Part shown: positions 12,461 through 63,947 of the stretch, piece by piece
Numbering within the stretch: the stretch's first letter is position 1
Layout of the letters: each line of letters opens with the position of its first letter
From: a virus
Direction: 5' to 3' (one strand)
IMG/VR virus record: IMGVR_UViG_3300045932_000268
Coordinates: 1-63,947 of that record
Length of the DNA stretch: 63,947 nucleotides
Program-made: the position numbers and the translations under genes
Notes under the pieces: model-generated
Database searches by the model: none
Told to the model about the DNA's origin: nothing
What the model saw: only the letters and a program-made list of their open reading frames with translations

Positions 12461-13501
12461 TCAGGCGGTGACTTTCATCCCCGCTTCGAGCGCCGCGAGA
12501 TCGGCCGCCGTCCAAGCCACGCCGGTCGCCGGGTTGACCGCCCGCACCTCGGAGAAGTACCCGAAGGTCGTGCTGGGCGCGACGTTCGCCCCGTCGTAGT
12601 CGGTGCCACTGGCGCGCACGACCGCGCAGACCTGGCGGGTGGCGGCGTCCGACTTGGCGACGTAAAGGTTGGTCTGGATGCCGAGGATCGCGCCAGTGAG
12701 CGAGAGGGACGGGTAGTGGTAGGTGTCCTTGGCGCCGACGGTCGCCGAGCTGTTGTAGTCGGTGATATTCGGCGGGTTCTCATCGACCAGCGCGCCGTGG
12801 TCGGTGCCGGTCGAGGGCGTCAGGCCGAGGTTGGTGCCGTTGCCGGTCTGCGGCAGCAGCGTCTCCACTTTCACCGGACCGAGGAAGTCGTTGTTGGTCG
12901 AGCCGGAGGTATCGCAGACGTAGACGTCGTCAACTGCGGACTCGCCGCCACTCCCGCCCAGCAGGATTCGATCCCATTGCCCGGTCGCCCCCGCGTTGTT
13001 GGTATCCACCCCGCTGGCCGTGAGGCCGGGGACGGCGACGCCATCGACCCGCACCTCGTAGGTGCCGGTCGTGTCGTGAATCACGGTCTTCAGCTCCACG
13101 TATTGCCAGCTCGCGGTCACGATGGCCGGGCTGCTGCTGGTGGCGAGCGTCGTGGCCCCGCGCTTGACGATGAGGGTGCCGCCGCTCCCCACACTCAGCT
13201 CGATGTGGACGGTGGTCCCTTCGCGCACCTGGAAGAGCACGGCGCCGATCTGGATCGTGGTCGTGCGGAACGCCGCGCCTACGATGGCGCCTCCGGAGGC
13301 GGGCAGCACCTTGGTGATGGCGTGGTTCCCGCTGGAACTGCCCCCATTGACGAACCGGACCGCGCCGACGCCGGTCCGCGTAAACCAGGGATTGAGGAAC
13401 AGGGAGTTGGTGGTCTCGTACTTCGTGGCCAGCGCCGCGGAGTCGTTCGGCCCCTCGCGCGGCCCGCAGTGATCGAAGCCGTCCATGAAGCGCAGCGCCA
13501 T
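12461..13501 (-). CDS. Concanavalin A/LamG-like virion protein, copy A, 346 aa
   Basis: The opening MALRFMDGFDHC and the later beta-rich run (VHIELSVGSGGTLIVKRG, TYEVRVDGVAVPG, SAVDDVYVCDTSG) fit a jelly-roll lectin/glucanase fold like LamG. The C-terminal third (LGLTPSTGTDHGALVDENPP) is a second beta module shared with the next gene. It is paralogous to 13502-14530 (MALLFLDSFDHY opening, IDDVYILDGSG), and the two are separated by no bases. Such proteins occur on phage tails and bind sugars; the target here is unknown. Confidence 0.75.
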   Translation of the reverse strand: MALRFMDGFDHCGPREGPNDSAALATKYETTNSLFLNPWFTRTGVGAVRFVNGGSSSGNHAITKVLPASGGAIVGAAFRTTTIQIGAVLFQVREGTTVHIELSVGSGGTLIVKRGATTLATSSSPAIVTASWQYVELKTVIHDTTGTYEVRVDGVAVPGLTASGVDTNNAGATGQWDRILLGGSGGESAVDDVYVCDTSGSTNNDFLGPVKVETLLPQTGNGTNLGLTPSTGTDHGALVDENPPNITDYNSSATVGAKDTYHYPSLSLTGAILGIQTNLYVAKSDAATRQVCAVVRASGTDYDGANVAPSTTFGYFSEVRAVNPATGVAWTAADLAALEAGMKVTA

Positions 13502-14530
13502 CTACGCATCCCTCCTGACACCCGCCTGCAGCGCGTTGACGTTGGCATCGGTGAGCGGGTCGCCGTTCGGCATGGTCACGAAGCAGTCGCGGTTGCGGTA
13601 GAAGTAAGTCGAGGCGAGCGAGCGCGTGACGAGCGGCGTCGTCGTGCCGGCATGGCGCAGGAGCGGCGTCAGGGTGGCGTAGCCTTCCTCCGTGCGGCGG
13701 GCGTCGATCAAGAGCTGGGCGCCGATGATGCCGTTGTTCGTGTTGAGGTCTTCCATCTCGTAGAGGTCGGAGAGGCCCGCGGTCGCGGCGGTCACCTTCG
13801 TGGCCTCGTCATCGGGCGTCTGGTCGTTGACCGCGTCCCAGTTGGCCGCCGCGCCCGCCGGCGTCCACTGAGTGACCGCGCCGACGCCGTTCGGTCGAAT
13901 CACGCTGATCTCGACGTCCCCGAGCGGGGCGTTCCACGGTGCCGGGCCGGAGCCATCCAGGATGTAGACGTCATCGATCCCCGCCGCATTGGTCGCGCCG
14001 CCGATGACGACCTGCGTCCAGCCGTAGGGCGAGAGCCCATAGGGCGAGGCGGGGGTGGTTCCCAAGCCCGTCGGGATGTCGAGGACGAGCAGCCCATCGA
14101 TCCAGGCTCGCGCGCTGAGGACGGCGACACTGGCGGGCGGCACGGGCGCGACGAGGGTCTCGACTTCGAGATACACCCACTGACTGGTGTGCAGCGTGTC
14201 CACGGCGGAGAGATGCCCGACGCCATCCGGTCCAGTGATCCGGAGTCGGCCGGCGCCGATCGCGTCCACACCGTAATAGGTGCCGTGGATGTCGCCGAGC
14301 GCCAGGCCGGTGGCGCCGCCGAAGCCGCTGAAGTTGATCGCCATCCCGACGACGGCGGTGGAACTCGCGATATTCGGGAGTCCGATCACCCCGGTGCCGT
14401 TCATTCCGTTGCCGTGGCGGCCATAGAGACTGTGGATCGACAGGGCGTGGGTGGTGGTGTACTTCCGGTCGGCGCCCCCGAAGACCGCCGTGTCGTAGTG
14501 ATCGAAGCTGTCGAGGAAGAGCAGCGCCAT
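13502..14530 (-). CDS. Concanavalin A/LamG-like virion protein, copy B, 342 aa
   Basis: Start chosen at 14530 (MALLFLDSFDHY), matching the opening of its paralogue; the 13 residues upstream are Arg-rich and lie over the previous gene. The same order of modules is visible: N-terminal jelly roll, IDDVYILDGSG strand, then a C-terminal module with ANWDAVNDQTPDDEATKV. The pair diverged well beyond close identity, so the duplication is old. Position in the tail operon points to a virion surface role. Confidence 0.75.
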   Translation of the reverse strand: MALLFLDSFDHYDTAVFGGADRKYTTTHALSIHSLYGRHGNGMNGTGVIGLPNIASSTAVVGMAINFSGFGGATGLALGDIHGTYYGVDAIGAGRLRITGPDGVGHLSAVDTLHTSQWVYLEVETLVAPVPPASVAVLSARAWIDGLLVLDIPTGLGTTPASPYGLSPYGWTQVVIGGATNAAGIDDVYILDGSGPAPWNAPLGDVEISVIRPNGVGAVTQWTPAGAAANWDAVNDQTPDDEATKVTAATAGLSDLYEMEDLNTNNGIIGAQLLIDARRTEEGYATLTPLLRHAGTTTPLVTRSLASTYFYRNRDCFVTMPNGDPLTDANVNALQAGVRRDA

Positions 14531-14537
14531 CAGATCC

Positions 14538-14702
14538 TCACGTCGTGGTCGGCCGCACCGCGTAGCCATAGTGGTGGAGCGTGGTGCCCCACGCGCGCAC
14601 CGGCGCGGGAGCAGGCGCGGGAGCGTCCCGTGAGGCAGGCGGTGGGTCAGGTGCCTCCTTTGGGGGCGGTACCGCCGGAGGCGAGGAGAGCGCGTCCGTC
14701 AT
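14538..14702 (-). CDS. Pro/Ala-rich microprotein ending in LHHYGYAVRP, 54 aa
   Basis: Starts at 14702 with a GGAG about 13 bases upstream and stops at 14538, fitting exactly between two genes. The first 35 residues are Pro/Ala-rich (PAPAPAPVRA) and probably disordered. The end, TTLHHYGYAVRPTTT, carries the HYGYAxRP motif found at the C-terminus of the 429-aa repeat protein and inside the 230-aa Ig-like protein. A short linker-plus-docking peptide is a plausible reading. Confidence 0.6.
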   Translation of the reverse strand: MTDALSSPPAVPPPKEAPDPPPASRDAPAPAPAPVRAWGTTLHHYGYAVRPTTT

Positions 14703-25722: not shown

Positions 25723-27885
25723 TCACGCTCCCCGCCGCCACCGGCGCCGCGCCTCGCGCGCCACCTGCGCGTAGACGGCATCAAACCGCGGCGGCATCCC
25801 GTGCGGACTCACGTCCCGCCCCTGCCACCCCGGATCCCACACCGGATCCTCGCGCGCCAGCGTCGTCCGCCGGTCCGTTGCGGTCTGCCGCGGCCCGCGT
25901 GTCTCGTTCACATACCAGGAGAAGAGCAGCATGCCGGCGGCGACGATCCGATCATCGTGCCCGCCGTAGGCGGCCCGCGCCGATTGCGCCGCTTCGTCCT
26001 TTTCGAGCGATTCCATCTCCGCCACGAACATCGGCGAGGCCAGATCGATCCAGCCGTTGTTGATGTAGGTCTGCACCATGTCGAGCATCCAGGCGCGGGC
26101 CCACTGGTTGGAGAAGAAGCCGATCTTGTTGCTGCGCGTCCGCTGCATGCGTTGGTCGTAGCGTTGCCAGACGTGGAAGTTCCACCAGCCGCGCTTCTTC
26201 ATTTCGTACTGGACGGCTTCCCCCGAGCGCAGACAGTCGATCGACACCCGCGGTTGCCGCCGTTCCCCGTCGATCTCGGTCGCAAACAGGCTCCCGAGCG
26301 CATACGCCCACGGCCAGAAGCCCTGGCTGTTGATGTAGGGCGAGCACATCTCGACCACCTGCCCGTCGATCCGCGTCAGGCTCCCTTTGCGCAGGCCTTC
26401 GATCACCGAGGCGTCCAGCCCGATGCCGTCGCCGGTATCGACGCCGAAGCCGTACTCCTCGTCGGGCGCCGGCCACTCCCAGACGAAGATTTTGCCGTCG
26501 GTCGAGGCCCCGTAGCCGTCGTAGCGCACCGGCACCAGCTCGTAGCGCAGGTCGTGCGCGCCCCACTGCGCCCGAATCGGGATCGGGGGCAACCGGCTCT
26601 CGGTTTCCACCGACGTCGGCCGGTGTTCGATCGGCACATCCTCGCGCGCCGGCCCGAACCCCTGCAGTTTGTAGACGCCGATCGGCTCTTTCACCTGCTC
26701 GCGGCAGCGCGTGACGACCTCGACGCTGAACACCGAGTGATTCGTCGACTGAAACGCCTCGAAATCGTCCGCCGGACACTCCTGCAGGAAGCGATTGAGC
26801 TCGTTGCTCTGCTTGTACTCGTCGCGCGTGACCTCGTACCACCAGAGTTGCTCGCGCGGCAGCACCCAGCCCCGGCCGAGGTGCTGGCGGAGGCGCGGAT
26901 TGGCCTCCACGTAGGCGGCGGCCCGCGCCGCATACAGCTGGAGCGGCTCATCCGCACGCCAGTCGGGCGGGATCGGGTGTTTCCGCAACCACCCCTCGTC
27001 GGGATAGATGTCCCGGCCCACATACCACGGCAGGAAGATGGGGCAGAGGCGGGCCCGGCCGCGCGCCCAGCCCTCTTTGGAGAGCCGCCACTTGGCGTGC
27101 CACCAGTTATCGCGCCCGAGCGCCGTCGATTCGAGGATCGCGAACACGTAGGGCGTCTCGTGCACGGCGTTGAGGAAGCTGGCGTCGATGTCCTCGGCGG
27201 GATTGCTCCATTCGCACAGCTCGGAGAAGTGCGCGACGTTCGGGGTCGAGCCACGGCTGACGCCGCTGAACTGGTTCCCCGACTGCGAACAGTCGAGCGC
27301 CGAATTGTGGCCGCCGAATTCGGCCGGCATCAGCTTGGACACCTTGGTGACGCGCGGCATCAGCCACCACGGCGTGTGCTCCCACACCGTGCGGATCATC
27401 TTGGAGAGCTTTTCGGTCTTGATCGGCGTCGAGGAGGCGACGACCGCATCGACATCCGCCCAGAACTGCACGCGGTGCGCGACGGCGAGCTCGGTCAGCG
27501 TGGAGACGCCCAACTGGCGAGCCTTCAGTTGGATCATCATGATCGCCCACCGCTTGGCGTCCATCTCCGCCCAGAGATCGAGCACGATCTCCTGCGCCGC
27601 ATTCGGCCGGAAGGGCGTCAGGACCTTTTCGAAGCTGACGATCTTGGCGTAGCGCGTCGCCCAATAGCGGAAGTCGTGCGTGCAGATCAGGCGCTCGTGA
27701 TCGATGAAGGCGATCTCGTCGGGGGTCAAGCCGCGCGTGAGGTCTTTCGTCTCGGGATCCCACGCGTCGGCGAGGATCCCGGTCATGTGGGCGACGTCGG
27801 CCGCCTCCAAGTAGGTCGGATCGAAGCTGGGGGTGGCGCGGGCCTGCGCCGCAAGGAAGCGCCGTGTCGTGGCCGGGTCATACAT
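25723..27885 (-). CDS. Terminase large subunit, 720 aa
   Basis: ATPase and nuclease that packages DNA at the portal. Walker A-like KARQLGVST is at residues 121-129, Walker B VAHFSE at 217-222, and the coupling motif LESTA at 251-255. The C-terminal RNase H-like nuclease shows GVDTGDG (Asp 483), SIDC (Asp 550) and GHDDR (Asp 644-645). Length 720 aa is long for the family but normal for many podovirus-like terminases. The candidate small terminase is upstream at 28129-28764. Confidence 0.95.
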   Translation of the reverse strand: MYDPATTRRFLAAQARATPSFDPTYLEAADVAHMTGILADAWDPETKDLTRGLTPDEIAFIDHERLICTHDFRYWATRYAKIVSFEKVLTPFRPNAAQEIVLDLWAEMDAKRWAIMMIQLKARQLGVSTLTELAVAHRVQFWADVDAVVASSTPIKTEKLSKMIRTVWEHTPWWLMPRVTKVSKLMPAEFGGHNSALDCSQSGNQFSGVSRGSTPNVAHFSELCEWSNPAEDIDASFLNAVHETPYVFAILESTALGRDNWWHAKWRLSKEGWARGRARLCPIFLPWYVGRDIYPDEGWLRKHPIPPDWRADEPLQLYAARAAAYVEANPRLRQHLGRGWVLPREQLWWYEVTRDEYKQSNELNRFLQECPADDFEAFQSTNHSVFSVEVVTRCREQVKEPIGVYKLQGFGPAREDVPIEHRPTSVETESRLPPIPIRAQWGAHDLRYELVPVRYDGYGASTDGKIFVWEWPAPDEEYGFGVDTGDGIGLDASVIEGLRKGSLTRIDGQVVEMCSPYINSQGFWPWAYALGSLFATEIDGERRQPRVSIDCLRSGEAVQYEMKKRGWWNFHVWQRYDQRMQRTRSNKIGFFSNQWARAWMLDMVQTYINNGWIDLASPMFVAEMESLEKDEAAQSARAAYGGHDDRIVAAGMLLFSWYVNETRGPRQTATDRRTTLAREDPVWDPGWQGRDVSPHGMPPRFDAVYAQVAREARRRWRRGA

Positions 27886-51444: not shown

Positions 51445-51693
51445 TTACCCCCGGCGCCGCCGGTCCTCCTCAGGCACGACTTCCGCCCGCGACACCGCCG
51501 CCTCGAGGTCCTCTTCCAGAAACCGCAACGACCGCCCCAGCCGATAGGGCCGGATGCCAAGTTTGGGATACGCACAGATGAAGGCGTGGAGCGTCGCGTA
51601 CCCGAGGAACCGCTGCGCCTCGCGCGAATTGAGATACCGCTTGTCGAGGCCCCCGGGCCGCACGGTAAAGCGACTGATCGTGCTTTTCGTCAT
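51445..51693 (-). CDS. Excisionase/AlpA-like HTH protein, 82 aa
   Basis: LNSREAQRFLGYATLHAFIC, then GRSLRFLEEDLEAAVSRAEV has the strand-turn-helix pattern of AlpA/Xis proteins. It overlaps the 71-aa HTH gene by four bases. With the integrase at 52818-53936 it could steer excision. Its place at the start of the replication operon would link excision to lytic genes. Confidence 0.65.
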   Translation of the reverse strand: MTKSTISRFTVRPGGLDKRYLNSREAQRFLGYATLHAFICAYPKLGIRPYRLGRSLRFLEEDLEAAVSRAEVVPEEDRRRRG

Positions 51694-52817: not shown

Positions 52818-53936
52818 ATGAGCCTCTTTCAACGTCCGCACAGCCCCTTTTGGTGGATGTACCTGGCCCGGCCCGGCCGCGCCGGCCTGCGCAAGAGCAC
52901 CGGCGTGCGCATCGACGCCGCCACGCCCGGCCAGCGCCGCGATCAGAAACTGCTCGCCCAGCAGATCTGCGACACCGAACAAGCCACACTCGCCGCCACG
53001 CAGTACCAGGAGCTCGCCACCCGCAAGCCGGTGATCACGTTCGCGGAGTACGCCGAGTGGTACACCGCGCATGTGATCCCGACCCACGCCCGCCGCGGGC
53101 AGGCCAAGGATCGATCCCGGCTCCGCGTGCTCGTCGCCTATTTCACGGACACCCCGCTGCATCTGATCGATGCGGCGGGGACGCAGGAATTCATCACGTG
53201 GCGGCGGCAGCAGGGCCTCTCCAACAATTCGATCAACCGGGAGCTCGATGACCTCAAGGTGCTGCTCACGCGGGCCGTGCCCATGTATCTGGCGGCGAGT
53301 CCGCTCGTCGGCTTCCGCCGGCTGCGCCCGCAGGAGTTCGAGGCGCGGGTGCTGACCCGGGAGGAATTCGATCGCCTGCTGGCGGCGTGCGCCACGACCG
53401 AAGAGGTGGCGCTGCTCGAGACGGCGGTCAATACCTTGCTGCGGCTCAGTAGTCTCGTCACGCTGAAACCCGAGCATGACAAGCGCACCTACTTCGTGAC
53501 GCTCAACGCCAAGGTCCGCCAGGCCGGGGCGCCGATTCCGCCGGTGCTGCGCGAGGCGCTCGACGCCATGCCGCCGCCGACCGGGCCGTATCTCTTCTTC
53601 AATCACATCGGGCGCCGCGGTGGCGGTGAGACAGCCCGCGAGAACGCCATCATCCGCTGGTTTGCGAAACTCTGCGCTAAGGCGTCCGTGCCGCACGGCC
53701 GTCACGTCGAGGGGGTCACCTTCCACGGACTGCGCCACACCGGGGCCACGTGGGCGCTGCGGCGGGGCACCCCGCTACCGGACGTCCTCAAGCTCGGCGG
53801 CTGGCGCACCGTGCCGCAATGCCTCCGCTATGCGGCCCACACGAATGTCGCCGCCGTCCACGCAGCGGCGGCCAACATCCGGGGCACGCACCCGCGCCTG
53901 CTGAAACTGCAGGAGCGTCGTCGAGGGTCCCGATGA
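52818..53936 (+). CDS. Tyrosine integrase, 372 aa
   Basis: Catalytic residues: Arg 209 (LLRLSSLVTL), Lys about 232, HGLR with His 303 and Arg 306, Trp 329 in LGGWR where His/Trp is expected, and Tyr 338 (CLRYAAHT). Residues 1-65 are an arm-type DNA-binding domain (MSLFQRPHSPFWWMYLARPG), which is repeated as a separate protein at 58385-58789. It inserts the phage into the host genome. No attP is evident next to it. Confidence 0.95.
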   Translation: MSLFQRPHSPFWWMYLARPGRAGLRKSTGVRIDAATPGQRRDQKLLAQQICDTEQATLAATQYQELATRKPVITFAEYAEWYTAHVIPTHARRGQAKDRSRLRVLVAYFTDTPLHLIDAAGTQEFITWRRQQGLSNNSINRELDDLKVLLTRAVPMYLAASPLVGFRRLRPQEFEARVLTREEFDRLLAACATTEEVALLETAVNTLLRLSSLVTLKPEHDKRTYFVTLNAKVRQAGAPIPPVLREALDAMPPPTGPYLFFNHIGRRGGGETARENAIIRWFAKLCAKASVPHGRHVEGVTFHGLRHTGATWALRRGTPLPDVLKLGGWRTVPQCLRYAAHTNVAAVHAAAANIRGTHPRLLKLQERRRGSR

Positions 53937-56406: not shown

Positions 56407-56613
56407 ATGCGATCCTGCAACGTCGAGTATTCGCCTCATGTGCGGTGCGTGCTTCCCGAGGGGCATTCCGGGGAGCACCTGACGAAGGGCAATCTTCGAT
56501 TCACTGTGCCAGAACACCGCTGCGGCGTGCGAGGCTTCGCGGAGAGCGGGGACCGCTGCCCCGCGTGTGTGTGGCACAACCGCTTCGCGAAGCGTGACGG
56601 GCACCCCCGATGA
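56407..56613 (+). CDS. Zinc-knuckle-like protein, 68 aa
   Basis: Residues 4-28 (CNVEYSPHVRCVLPEGHSGE) have the CxxxxxxxxxC...GHSGxH pattern of small phage/actinobacterial proteins. Ends FAKRDGHPR, the same ending as the next gene. Start at 56407. Confidence 0.65.
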   Translation: MRSCNVEYSPHVRCVLPEGHSGEHLTKGNLRFTVPEHRCGVRGFAESGDRCPACVWHNRFAKRDGHPR

Positions 56614-56617
56614 CCGC
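56589..56617. repeat. 29-bp gene-junction repeat, copy 1
   Basis: GAAGCGTGACGGGCACCCCC continuing to GATGACCGC; identical to 56943-56971. It spans the end of one gene (KRDGHPR, TGA overlap) and the start of the next (MTAP). This suggests a duplicated junction, as in gene-cassette growth. Confidence 0.85.
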
Positions 56618-56966
56618 CCCTGACCGCCCCATGAACTACATCCTTGACGAGCACGGCAACCCGCAGCCGTGCGACGACCTGATGACGTGGGCGCGCTGGT
56701 TTAAGACGGCCGACCGCACCGTGAGCAACGACTACGACGAGGGCGACGAGGGCAAGACGATCCGCGTCTCGACGGTGTTTCTCGGACTCGACCACAACTT
56801 CATCGGCAGCGGCCCGCCGATTCTCTACGAGACGATGGTGTTCGGCGGCGTGCTCGACGGCGAGATGGACCGCTACGCCACGCGCGAGGAAGCGATGATC
56901 GGACATCAGGAGATGTGCCGGCGTGTCTGCGAGACGCTGGAGAAGCGTGACGGGCACCCCCGATGA
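56610..56966 (+). CDS. Hypothetical protein, 118 aa
   Basis: MTAPDRPMNYILDEHGNPQP, then LMTWARWFKTADRTVSNDYD and MVFGGVLDGEMDRYATREEA match a small conserved protein of unknown function seen in phages and high-GC bacteria (LDExGxPxP, WARWFE). The end KRDGHPR is carried by the 29-bp repeat. Confidence 0.7.
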   Translation: MTAPDRPMNYILDEHGNPQPCDDLMTWARWFKTADRTVSNDYDEGDEGKTIRVSTVFLGLDHNFIGSGPPILYETMVFGGVLDGEMDRYATREEAMIGHQEMCRRVCETLEKRDGHPR

Positions 56967-56971
56967 CCGCA
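56943..56971. repeat. 29-bp gene-junction repeat, copy 2
   Basis: Identical to 56589-56617; covers the end of the 118-aa gene and the ATG of the 132-aa gene at 56963. The next six bases are also alike except one. Confidence 0.85.
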
Positions 56972-57361
56972 CCTGAGCCTGGACCGCAGCCCTACGTGAT
57001 CTGGTCGTTCGAACACGACGCGTGGTGGCGCCCCGGACGCATGGGCTACACGCCCGTGTTCGCTGAGGCCGGGCACTACGACGCGGCCGAGGCCCAGCAC
57101 ATCGTTCTGAACGCGAACCGCTACGCGAAAGACGTCCACGAGCAGGCGCTGCCGCTCGACGTCGCCAAGACCTACGAGGCGCTCGGGTGGCACCGCCTGG
57201 CGCCCGGCGCCTATGACGACCAGGACGGTGGTCTGCACCTCGTCGTGAGCGAAATGCTCGCCGGCTATGGGTATCCCGACACGCCGGAGAACCGGGCCAC
57301 GCTGATCAAGGCGGCGCACGTCGTCGCCGGGGATCGCCCGATCGTCAGCGTCTTGGACTAG
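56963..57361 (+). CDS. Hypothetical protein, 132 aa
   Basis: MTAPEPGPQPYVIWSFEHDA, WWRPGRMGYTPVFAEAGHYD, AAEAQHIVLNANRY is a block I know from small host-like phage proteins (YVIWSFEHDAWWRPGRxGY). Function unknown. The last gene before the large non-coding stretch. Confidence 0.7.
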   Translation: MTAPEPGPQPYVIWSFEHDAWWRPGRMGYTPVFAEAGHYDAAEAQHIVLNANRYAKDVHEQALPLDVAKTYEALGWHRLAPGAYDDQDGGLHLVVSEMLAGYGYPDTPENRATLIKAAHVVAGDRPIVSVLD

Positions 57362-57996
57362 GGTCTGCTCGTCGCAGGCGGTCATACCGAAGCGCCGATT
57401 TTCTGCACACTACACGACACACTCTGGGCGATCCGCGCGAATCTGTTCGGGAATTGACGTGAAGAATCCCGGTGGGGACGCCACTACCATTTGGGCGATC
57501 TGCGGGTTTTCCTGAGCAAATCCGCGTGGTTTCGGTCATTCAGGCGAAAGGAGCGAGGTCTCAAAAAGTCTAAGGAAATCGCCGATCGTCATTTTTTGTC
57601 TGCACATTCCATCGCACACTGCCCCCCACTGTGCACACGGCCTCGAGGAACGGGATTCGTCAGCGTCGAAAACTCTCGATGATTGTTGATCGAATTACGT
57701 GCGCGCCGGACTTTCGTTTCCCGTTCGTATGGGGGTGGCCGTGCAAACAGGCTAGCTTACTCAGCATTCTGCGCGGCTTGATCCGTTGCCGCACAAGTGT
57801 GCGATGCGAATCCTGGTTCGAGCCCTTGTGGTCTAGGTGCTGGCACCGTCACACCGCCGTGGGCGGATCGAGGACGCAATGGCGAGCACAATCGAACCAC
57901 GCTCCGTCTCGTCTCTCACCCACCCTGTGCAGGGTGGGCCTCCCGGAGGCCCACCTGAAACACGACGATATCTTGCCTATTTGCCACATTCTGTGG
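57362..57996. other. 635-bp non-coding region with palindromes and a tRNA-like fragment
   Basis: No convincing gene. CGCACA-AG-TGTGCG (57790-57803) is a hairpin. CCCACCCT/AGGGTGGG (57919-57938) and GGGCCTCC/GGAGGCCC (57936-57952) are two stems that share bases 57936-57938, so only one can form. Repeats GGGCGATCCGCG/GGGCGATCTGCG lie near 57427 and 57493. TCCTGGTTCGAGCCC (about 57811-57825) resembles part of a tRNA T-arm. Confidence 0.6.
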
Positions 57997-58026
57997 TTGA
58001 CACCCCGCAGTCGGCTTCTGTACTGT
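57997..58026 (+). promoter_or_regulatory. Promoter of the 111-aa gene
   Basis: TTGACA (57997-58002), 18-base spacer, TACTGT (58021-58026). The ATG at 58033 is seven bases from the -10 box, so the message would be leaderless. Same -10 box as the leftward promoter at 51933. Confidence 0.7.
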
Positions 58027-58032
58027 TGAGGT

Positions 58033-58368
58033 ATGCCATACACCGATCCCATCAAACAGAACGAAGCCAAGCAACGATCCCGCGCCCGTGAGATCACCGC
58101 CGGGCGCTGCATCCGTTGCCCACGCAAGAATGACCATCCTGAGATCAACGCCCGACTCTGCTCAGAGTGTCGGAAGAAAAGCTCTGCCGAGAAAAGAATC
58201 GCCCGGGTCACCCGCGCTGAGGAACTCTTGGAAGCCCGTCTTGAACTTGCCTCGTTGCGTGCACAAGTCCTTCGCAAGGCTGCGTATTCCTCGACGACCG
58301 TCCGCAGCCGCGAGATCCTCGGCACACCACCGCGTCCACATCTGAGTACCGCGAACAAGCAACGGTGA
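58033..58368 (+). CDS. Zinc-binding basic protein, 111 aa
   Basis: TAGRCIRCPRKNDHPEINAR, then LCSECRKKSSAEKR gives two CxxC pairs 16 residues apart, with basic flanks, as in small HNH-like or DNA-binding proteins. The C-terminal half is helical (EELLEARLELASLRAQVLRK). Leaderless start. It precedes the integrase-domain paralogue by 16 bases and could be its partner. Confidence 0.6.
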   Translation: MPYTDPIKQNEAKQRSRAREITAGRCIRCPRKNDHPEINARLCSECRKKSSAEKRIARVTRAEELLEARLELASLRAQVLRKAAYSSTTVRSREILGTPPRPHLSTANKQR

Positions 58369-58384
58369 CTCCACTCACTCCAAA

Positions 58385-58789
58385 ATGGGTATCTACATTC
58401 GTCCCAAATCGCCCTACTACTGGATGTATCTCTCATGCCCTGGACAGCGCAGCCTTCGCCGCTCCACGGGCATTCTCATCGACGCTCTGACTCAGGCGGA
58501 TCGACAGCAGCAACGACGCATCGCCGTGGAGGTCTACCGTCGCACCGTCAATCAGTTCTCAACCCAACAGGAGCCACCTCCCATGACCCTCCAGGACGTG
58601 CTCAGCCAGCTCTCGGCGGCCCAGCAGGCCCTGCGCCATTCCTCCGCCGCCTTCGACACCGCTATCGCAGGCCTGCGGCAGACGCTCGACGCCGTGGCCC
58701 ACGCCAATCACGCACAAGGCGAAGCGATGGATGCCGTCATCCTCGCGACCGAGGAGGCGTTGCGGCTGTATCACGCCAAGGAACAGTGA
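58385..58789 (+). CDS. Stand-alone integrase arm-domain paralogue with coiled-coil tail, 134 aa
   Basis: Residues 1-40 match the integrase N-terminus at 21 of 40 positions without gaps (RPKSPYYWMYLSCPG versus RPHSPFWWMYLARPG; LRRSTG versus LRKSTG). After residue 65 the similarity stops; a helical tail (LQDVLSQLSAAQQALRHSSA) follows. There is no catalytic domain. It might bind the integrase arm sites to regulate or block recombination. Confidence 0.7.
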   Translation: MGIYIRPKSPYYWMYLSCPGQRSLRRSTGILIDALTQADRQQQRRIAVEVYRRTVNQFSTQQEPPPMTLQDVLSQLSAAQQALRHSSAAFDTAIAGLRQTLDAVAHANHAQGEAMDAVILATEEALRLYHAKEQ

Positions 58790-58853
58790 CCGAAGATGTT
58801 GATCGCAATCAAACCGGCCACCGGACCCGGTCCGCTACGCTACCCGTATCCTG

Positions 58854-59093
58854 ATGAGTGTCTATACGGACCTCGTGAAGCTCGGTGTCACTGAAGACAC
58901 CGCCCGCGCCCTTGCGGAAGTGGTTGCTCGCCCGCAGCCGGTCACCACGGACTATCTCGACAAGCGCCTCGCGGAACTGGAAGCGCGGCTGCTGCGCCAC
59001 ACGACGACGGTGCTGCTCGGCGTCACCGGCATCTTTGCGTTCTTTGTCGTCGCTAGTAGCGCGTGGCTTGGCTGGCTGATCGCCACGCGCTAA
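58854..59093 (+). CDS. Coiled-coil membrane protein, 79 aa
   Basis: DYLDKRLAELEARLLRHTTT coiled coil, then a TM helix (VLLGVTGIFAFFVVASSAWL). The order matches the 88-aa protein at 38962-39228 (coiled coil then TM). DUF1640-like architecture. ATG at 58854. Confidence 0.65.
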   Translation: MSVYTDLVKLGVTEDTARALAEVVARPQPVTTDYLDKRLAELEARLLRHTTTVLLGVTGIFAFFVVASSAWLGWLIATR

Positions 59094-59130
59094 CCCATTA
59101 CCCATCAGGACGAACTCTCAAGGAGTCCGC

Positions 59131-59370
59131 ATGCCCACACCCACCCCTGCGACATCGAAACTGTTTCCGGATCCGCCGCCCCTGCAGTACCACTGGGGCT
59201 GGGACTACTACGAAGACGATGGCAGCCTCGCGGGCAAATTCCACCCCGGCTACCTGACGATGATCTGCTACTGGATCTTTATCGGGTTGCCCGGTCTGCT
59301 CTTCGTCGCCGGGGTGCTGATCTACACGCTGATCTTCTGGGGATCGCTGTTCTGGCGATTGGGATCGTAA
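59131..59370 (+). CDS. Membrane protein, 79 aa, holin candidate
   Basis: N-terminal half is polar/aromatic (LQYHWGWDYYEDDGSLAGKF); the C-terminal 38 residues are hydrophobic (MICYWIFIGLPGLLFVAGVL, then IYTLIFWGSLFWRLGS), one long or two TM helices split at GLPG. Convergent with the transglycosylase gene, eight bases apart. A holin or membrane-anchored factor is possible but unproven. Confidence 0.55.
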   Translation: MPTPTPATSKLFPDPPPLQYHWGWDYYEDDGSLAGKFHPGYLTMICYWIFIGLPGLLFVAGVLIYTLIFWGSLFWRLGS

Positions 59371-61908: not shown

Positions 61909-63873
61909 TCACCTCGGCACGGTCACGATGTTGCCGTTGGCGTCCCGGGTGAGGCCGGGGACCACGCCCTGCGATCCAGTGCCCCCGCCGCCTGGCGTCG
62001 TGGTGTTGGGCGTCTGCGGCGGCGCTGGTGTCTCGTAGAGCGTGATCGGGCGCGTCACGAAGTTGACGTTCAGTCCGTACTCCTTCGCGAAGTCCTCGAA
62101 CTCCTGCCGAATGCCGGCCGCTGACGCAATCTGATTCTGCGCGAAGCCCTCAGCCAGATTGACGTATTGCTCCAGCACCTCGTCCGGCACCGATAGCCCG
62201 CCCTGACTGATCTTCGTCCACAACCCTTCCAGTTGCTGGCGCAGGGCCAAGCCGTACTCCGACCGGGCGAATTCCGACACCATCACGACGGAATACGGGT
62301 CCAGGATCTTGTTGAACGTGGTAATCAACGCAATCCCGCCGGGCGCCCGCGCCCCCTTCTTCAACGCATCAAACGCGGTCTTCATGTTCAGGAACTGCGT
62401 CTTGACCGTCTGCGCCGCTTGCGTCTCCCGGTTGAAGTCATTGCGCAACAGGCGGCTCTGGGTCACGACTTGGTTCGCGTTCAGCTCCCCCTTCCGCGAT
62501 TCGGCGCGTTGCCGCTCGGCTTCCAATTCCTTGGCGGCGAAGATGTAGGCCTGCGCTTTCTGCTCCTTGGTCGCTTGGGTGGGATCACCGCCGCCCCGAG
62601 CCAGGATCTCCTGCGCCCGGGCTTCCAACGCCGGCGCCGCGTTCGGATCTTGCGCGATCCGCGTGAGCCGCGTGTGATCCTCCAAGGCCTTGTCCATCAG
62701 CGTCCGTTGTTCGGTGGGATCGGGATCACGGCCGTTGGTCTGACGAAAGTTCGCCAGATCCGTTTCGTAGAGGGACCGCGCACTGAGGGTGCGCTCCGCC
62801 TCGGTGGGCGCCGGGAACCCGGCGAGCCGCTTGGCTTCCTCCATCGTCTTGGCTTGACCGGTTTCCAAGAACTGCTGCGCAGCCGCCATCCGGCCCGCCA
62901 ACGTGGCCTGCGTCGTCGCCGCCGTCTCTTGCGCTTGCGTTTGCAGGCGGCGCTGTTGCCGCTGGGCCGCCGTCGTCCACAGCCGCGGGCGCGGTGTCAC
63001 CGCTGCCAGCGGGGGGAACGTGGCCTGCGTAGCGGGGGCGGCCGTGCCCGGTTCGAGTCCCCGTGGAAATTCCGGGAAGAGATCGAGCTGCGCTTCCCCG
63101 GGGCCGGCAAAGGGCGATTGACCGGCGGCGAGGCGCTGCTGGGCAAAGGCGCTGGCCTTGTCGGCAATGGCTTTCGGGATCGGCTGATCGTCCGGCAGAT
63201 TCAGGAGCGTCTGCACGTCCTCGGCGGTCAGCGTCGGCACCAGGGTCGGGATCTCGGTTTCCCCCTGACCGAAATCGACGCCGATGGACAGTTCGCTCGA
63301 CACCCCACCATCGGGGCGGCGCAGGGCACCCAAAAAGCCTTCGCCCTTCGGCGTGCCATCGGCGCGGACGCCCCATGGCGTGGCGGGTGCCGGCGCAGCG
63401 GGTTGGGCCGACGCCTGATCGGCGGCCTGAGCCGGGGCCATGTTGGGGCGCGGGACGAGGTGGCCAGCCGACCACTGTGACATCACGTCCGGTTCTGCTT
63501 GGCGCTTGCCACCGTATCCGCTGAACGCCCGGTGTGCTCCTTGGAGCAGGGGCGCAAGATTCTCCGGATCCCCTAACGCATCCATGACCGACTGCGTGGC
63601 GGCACTACGGGCTGGGCGTCGTCCTCCGCGCGTTTTCCGTGGGGCGAAGAGGCCTTCCGGATCCGTGAGCATCCGGGAAATCAGCACGTTGCCGTAATCC
63701 GGATCGAGCGTCTGATTTTCGACGCCCTGCACCAGGAAATTGAAGAGTTGTTTCTGGCCCTCCATTTCCTGTTGTTCGCCCAGCAAGGCTTCGCGGCGTT
63801 GCTGCTGCTGCTGCTCAAGCCAACTGCCGCCAAAGCCCCGGAGGAGGCCCGCGAAAAAGCTGTTGCCTTCCAT
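61909..63873 (-). CDS. Putative ejection protein, 654 aa
   Basis: Start at 63873 (MEGNSFFAGLLRGFGGSWLE). Early helices rich in Gln (QQQQQRREALLGEQQEMEGQ); residues about 175-250 (FLGALRRPDGGVSSELSIGV, TEIPTLVPTLTAEDVQTLLN) form a module found in other phage internal proteins; long helices follow. It lies between the 249-aa and 841-aa proteins, so it is the middle member of the ejection set (T7 gp15-like by position). Confidence 0.65.
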   Translation of the reverse strand: MEGNSFFAGLLRGFGGSWLEQQQQQRREALLGEQQEMEGQKQLFNFLVQGVENQTLDPDYGNVLISRMLTDPEGLFAPRKTRGGRRPARSAATQSVMDALGDPENLAPLLQGAHRAFSGYGGKRQAEPDVMSQWSAGHLVPRPNMAPAQAADQASAQPAAPAPATPWGVRADGTPKGEGFLGALRRPDGGVSSELSIGVDFGQGETEIPTLVPTLTAEDVQTLLNLPDDQPIPKAIADKASAFAQQRLAAGQSPFAGPGEAQLDLFPEFPRGLEPGTAAPATQATFPPLAAVTPRPRLWTTAAQRQQRRLQTQAQETAATTQATLAGRMAAAQQFLETGQAKTMEEAKRLAGFPAPTEAERTLSARSLYETDLANFRQTNGRDPDPTEQRTLMDKALEDHTRLTRIAQDPNAAPALEARAQEILARGGGDPTQATKEQKAQAYIFAAKELEAERQRAESRKGELNANQVVTQSRLLRNDFNRETQAAQTVKTQFLNMKTAFDALKKGARAPGGIALITTFNKILDPYSVVMVSEFARSEYGLALRQQLEGLWTKISQGGLSVPDEVLEQYVNLAEGFAQNQIASAAGIRQEFEDFAKEYGLNVNFVTRPITLYETPAPPQTPNTTTPGGGGTGSQGVVPGLTRDANGNIVTVPR

Positions 63874-63947
63874 CGTCGTGCGACTCTAGAAGCCGAGATG
63901 GAGGCTCTGCGTCTGCCACGGGGGCGGATCCCAGATGCCGCCGCCCC
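63821..63947. repeat. Terminal direct repeat, copy 2 (circle junction)
   Basis: Identical to bases 1-127. See copy 1. It contains the whole start of the 654-aa gene and the end of the 249-aa gene's downstream spacer. The unique circular length is therefore about 63,820 bp. Confidence 0.95.

Follow-up and report, generated by a model that had tools for sequence, protein, structure and literature searches.

Does a phage ever use the DNA-binding arm of its integrase as a protein in its own right? In lambda, whether the phage integrates or excises is decided by arm binding through the N-terminal domain of the integrase, together with Xis (PMC4880445). A natural protein with nothing but the arm domain could tilt such a choice by simple means, and it would offer a direct way to ask to what extent direction is set by arm occupancy alone. 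The window analyzed here, the whole of IMG/VR record IMGVR_UViG_3300045932_000268 (63,947 nucleotides), contains an open reading frame (ORF) that raises this question. An exact 127-base terminal repeat (1-127 and 63821-63947) marks the record as a closed phage genome, about 63.8 kb (about 63,820 bp) in length. Its terminase large subunit (25723-27885, minus strand) is 33% identical to those of the Tunturiibacter (Acidobacteriota) phages Tunturi_1 and Tunturi_2, a similarity that suggests an Acidobacteriota host. Elsewhere in this genome, two adjacent minus-strand genes (12461-13501 and 13502-14569) belong to the same unknown family, PHROG 2448. The integrase and the ORF are as follows.

52818-53936, plus strand: tyrosine integrase, 372 aa, with the arm-binding (AB) domain that is copied; R209, H303, R306, and Y338 are conserved.
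58385-58789, plus strand: 134-aa ORF with an AB domain (residues 1-58), a linker, and a predicted helical tail (67-134), delimited by the ORF list, alignment, genome search, and AlphaFold.
58385-58558, plus strand: AB-domain part of the ORF, with predicted beta strands at residues 3-5, 11-16, and 24-31 and a helix at 37-60; basic, pI 10.6 (AlphaFold, composition).

The ORF is an uninterrupted frame with an ATG start, and its resemblance to the integrase begins at the same methionine in both proteins. An ungapped alignment of residues 1 to 50 of each has 23 of 50 positions identical, and the sequence-only reading's count of 21 matches over the first 40 residues was reproduced exactly. Chance similarity is ruled out by the BLOSUM62 score of 136, compared with a mean of 32 and a maximum of 56 for 1,000 shuffles. 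When the whole 64-kb genome was searched with the ORF, the sole non-self match was the integrase N terminus (E 5.8e-13). The beta-sheet part, which is basic (+6.5), is better conserved than the helix (19/34 identical in residues 1-34 versus 4/24 in residues 35-58), and all six residues that are invariant among related arms are present in the ORF (R6, S9, P10, W13, S27, and T28).

The likeness ends there. Past residue 50, integrase homology is absent in any frame, Pfam detects no core-binding domain in the ORF, and the catalytic domain, with its RKHRH pentad and tyrosine, is missing. As the sequence-only reading had stated, no catalytic part follows the arm: core or catalytic integrase sequence was absent from every frame between 57.3 and 59.5 kb. 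The copied part stops at a domain boundary, and the ORF contains neither a stop nor a frameshift. In the integrase itself, the Pfam matches (Phage_integrase and SAM-like) all fall after residue 78, with none before. The ORF starts 4,449 bp past the integrase stop codon, in agreement with the 4.4 kb first reported.

Structure prediction, which had been proposed as a check, gave for the full-length ORF a beta-beta-beta-alpha arrangement with the shape of an arm-binding domain, at a pLDDT of about 78 to 92 for residues 1-50. Integrase AB domains share this layout of three strands and one helix (PMC8138268). The model of residues 1-60 alone was poor, so that the prediction of a three-stranded, one-helix, arm-binding type for the N-terminal domain draws on homology and on the model of the whole protein. 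Residues 67-134 are predicted to be helical, as the description of a helical tail had it, at low confidence and without informative structural matches. In a PDB fold comparison (VIA-align), the rows fit the helical tail and none displays an arm domain. The best arm-like row from Foldseek, among whose rows there was no solved arm-binding domain, was 1gcc (E 3, not significant), an AP2/ERF DNA-binding domain composed of a three-stranded sheet and a helix. The separate, arm-domain-only protein of the sequence-only reading is real, and what the analysis shows of it is its homology, predicted shape, missing catalytic parts, position, and rate of change. It resembles the AB domains of Tn916 Int and lambda Int in its predicted three strands and helix, N-terminal position, and basic charge (PMC8138268, PMC4880445), but it differs from these complex tyrosine recombinases in lacking core-binding and catalytic domains and in carrying an acidic helical tail.

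Arm domains, which occupy the N-terminal 50 to 60 residues, are found in many integrases. Of 396 Acidobacteriota genomes, 78 gave a profile match, and almost all matching frames were 330 to 500 aa long. Inspection of eleven short or fairly short frames (70 to 294 aa) revealed that most are frameshifted integrases with the core in an adjacent, different frame, while some are truncated, internally deleted, or contig-end fragments. The broken integrases L058, L061, L062, L064, and L066 are like the ORF in having an AB domain without a complete in-frame integrase; however, most retain out-of-frame core or catalytic sequence alongside, whereas the ORF has none and ends at a domain boundary. In L058, a 184-aa frame (939-1490) fuses the integrase arm straight to the integrase C terminus through an internal deletion.

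Neither a second stand-alone arm protein with a sound frame nor a credible integrase/arm pair, for which a search had been advised, was found in the 396 Acidobacteriota genomes and 21 whole viral records. The viral records comprised 13 whole IMG/VR records with related integrases and eight that share the att core described below, and none carried a credible second arm. Weak second matches in the relatives G397 and G399 were dismissed as noise within another gene (one of the two was inspected). Single-sequence scans of IMG/VR yielded no close relatives of the ORF, integrase, or terminase. Within the searches made, the arm-only gene occurs in one genome only, and the earlier remark that such a mechanism had not been seen in other phages holds within the 21 whole viral records (arm profile) and the phage and plasmid collections (single-sequence searches). 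With the terms tried, no publication describing an integrase arm as a protein by itself turned up in the literature. A "split integrase" of a Microcystis phage ("DNA-binding protein" plus "XerD") was rejected, the match being, in another frame, the true N terminus of an ordinary integrase that was annotated with too late a start and that overlaps an HTH_17 gene. In L069 (PP496355.1, 5980-7044), the integrase as deposited starts too late, and the true start lies inside an upstream HTH_17 gene in another frame.

The region upstream of the ORF contains the likely attachment site.

57361-58032, no strand: apparently non-coding region containing the putative attP core; GC about 0.58.
57464-57483, plus strand: putative attP core GAATCCCGGTGGGGACGCCA, identical to the 3' end of tRNA-Glu(TTC) (search against Acidobacteriota genomes).
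57425-57437, plus strand: candidate arm or accessory site TGGGCGATCCGCG; weak, not above shuffles.
57492-57504, plus strand: candidate arm or accessory site TGGGCGATCTGCG; weak, not above shuffles.

In comparisons with Acidobacteriota genomes, 20 to 22 bases of region 57361-58032 match tRNA-Glu(TTC) 3' ends in four genomes. The 20-mer at 57464-57483, a 20-bp exact tRNA-Glu copy with a single occurrence in the window (0.01 expected by chance, three mismatches allowed), is taken as the attP core. From the end of the integrase to this core is 3.5 kb, and from the core to the ORF start 0.9 kb, a possible setting for a recombination modulator. This position and the arm-domain-only protein itself partly support the suggestion in the sequence-only reading that the protein might occupy arm sites to block integration or aid excision. 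In an integrated prophage, the ORF and the integrase would be at opposite ends. A repeat search for arm sites in 57300-57900 returned one 13-mer pair flanking the core, with counts not above shuffles. A tRNA-like stretch at 57780-57860 was dropped, as its fold was no better than shuffles. The 20-mer recurs in eight IMG/VR contigs (L184-L191), of which six have an integrase gene within the part covered; differing integrase types use this one tRNA-Glu att site. In L189, whose arm is of the same type as that of the ORF, the tRNA-Glu att site is 5.7 kb from int.

The ORF is gene two in a four-gene run (58033-59370), and two further features bear on its interpretation.

58033-58368, plus strand: 111-aa protein with CxxC pairs, first gene of the run; its stop codon is 16 nt before the ORF ATG.
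58854-59093, plus strand: 79-aa protein with a helix and a hydrophobic C-terminal segment, third gene of the run (by eye).
59131-59370, plus strand: 79-aa hydrophobic protein, fourth gene of the run (by eye).
58583-58789, plus strand: possible internally started, 68-aa acidic helical protein; its ATG is preceded by AGGAG.
51445-51693, minus strand: 82-aa HTH_17-like protein, candidate ordinary excisionase (E 0.0075, below the Pfam cut-off).

We propose, at a probability of roughly 0.4, that the product of the ORF is a separate arm-binding protein of integrase origin that competes with the integrase and thereby biases recombination. Residues 1-58 would retain the AB-domain architecture of the integrase, a basic sheet of three strands and a helix, and the helical tail, probably a self-association element, would substitute for the core-binding and catalytic domains. 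Encoded beside attP, such a protein would sit on some arm sites that the integrase has to link with the core, and damping of integration or re-integration would be a likelier outcome than catalysis of any kind. A more specific version, in which a catalysis-free copy of the integrase arm beside attP is dedicated, as a competitor or a cofactor, to controlling when or in which direction site-specific recombination proceeds, is doubtful; so too is its corollary that directionality control is here made from the integrase itself and not from an excisionase family.

About equally likely is that the arm is inert, a 5' fragment of another, related integrase that was left beside attP and fused in frame with a small helical gene having its own ribosome-binding site. 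Recombination between tandem prophages that shared one tRNA-Glu gene could, for instance, have produced such a remnant. Consistent with this, a Shine-Dalgarno sequence is lacking before ATG 58385, while the internal ATG 58583, just past the arm, has a good one (ribosome duplex energies of +0.7 and -6.6 kcal/mol, respectively). Nevertheless, weak ribosome-binding sites are common in the gene block around the ORF, the integrase included, and translation may start at 58385. Third-position GC also differs between the arm part (0.67) and the tail (0.85). Moreover, broken integrases are frequent, making up most of the 11 short-frame matches in the 396 Acidobacteriota genomes; L189 combines the same arm type with a tRNA-Glu att site; and genes adjoining att sites are often captured. 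A remnant, if that is all it is, would show that integrase pieces collect beside shared tRNA att sites. Yet the frame is free of stops and frameshifts, the cut falls at a domain boundary, nothing is left of the remaining integrase sequence, and the invariant residues are kept. In favor of the arm-site competitor are its conserved sheet, its basic charge, the domain-exact cut, and its place beside attP.

Evolutionary rates are compatible with both. In a tree built with integrases of the same arm type (L070, L071, and L074, from a multi-sequence search of IMG/VR), the ORF pairs with its own integrase (support 89/71) as sister to L070, although support is moderate and the rows are short. The ORF has the longer protein branch (1.34, versus 0.49 for the integrase). 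In a relative-rate test over 53 codons, differences at the three codon positions numbered 23/21/32 for ORF-integrase, 23/21/34 for ORF-L070, and 22/20/34 for integrase-L070. These counts are nearly equal and alike in codon-position pattern, so the ORF arm has not been decaying free of constraint for long; it drifted no faster than the arms of the two integrases. Equal rates do not discriminate between a long-standing functional copy and a second integrase that was cut recently.

Two other roles would give the arm domain a function outside competition. Considerably less probable than the readings above is a transcription regulator, in which the arm domain, dimerized by the tail, binds 57361-58032 and controls its own operon or integrase expression instead of recombination. 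The operon-like run with attP in its upstream region fits this idea, as does the appearance of the AP2/ERF domain 1gcc, albeit not significant, in the Foldseek list, and in prophage KplE1 the integrase gene is reportedly repressed by the integrase and its directionality factor. However, no operator was found, and a sigma-70 promoter scan of 57361-58032 passed none. Least probable, and very much so, is a phage recombination directionality factor, or excisionase, despite the small size, the basic and probably DNA-binding N-terminal domain, and the gene's position near attP. HTH_17-type excisionases of D3-like phages are likewise small and may similarly act at att sites, but the ORF matches no helix-turn-helix family or other excisionase family (Pfam, NCBIfam, and PHROGs) and is built from the integrase's own domain. 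In Pseudomonas phage D3 and the Microcystis phage, both with related integrases, int overlaps a separate gene for an excisionase or an HTH_17 protein. The ORF is a less likely excisionase than regulator because the gene at 51445-51693, which weakly matches HTH_17, is the better candidate, though a weak one.

Finally, a 35-nt repeat (56589-56623 and 56942-56976; 97% identical) is present upstream of the non-coding region, and each copy spans the end of one gene and the start of the next in two successive genes.
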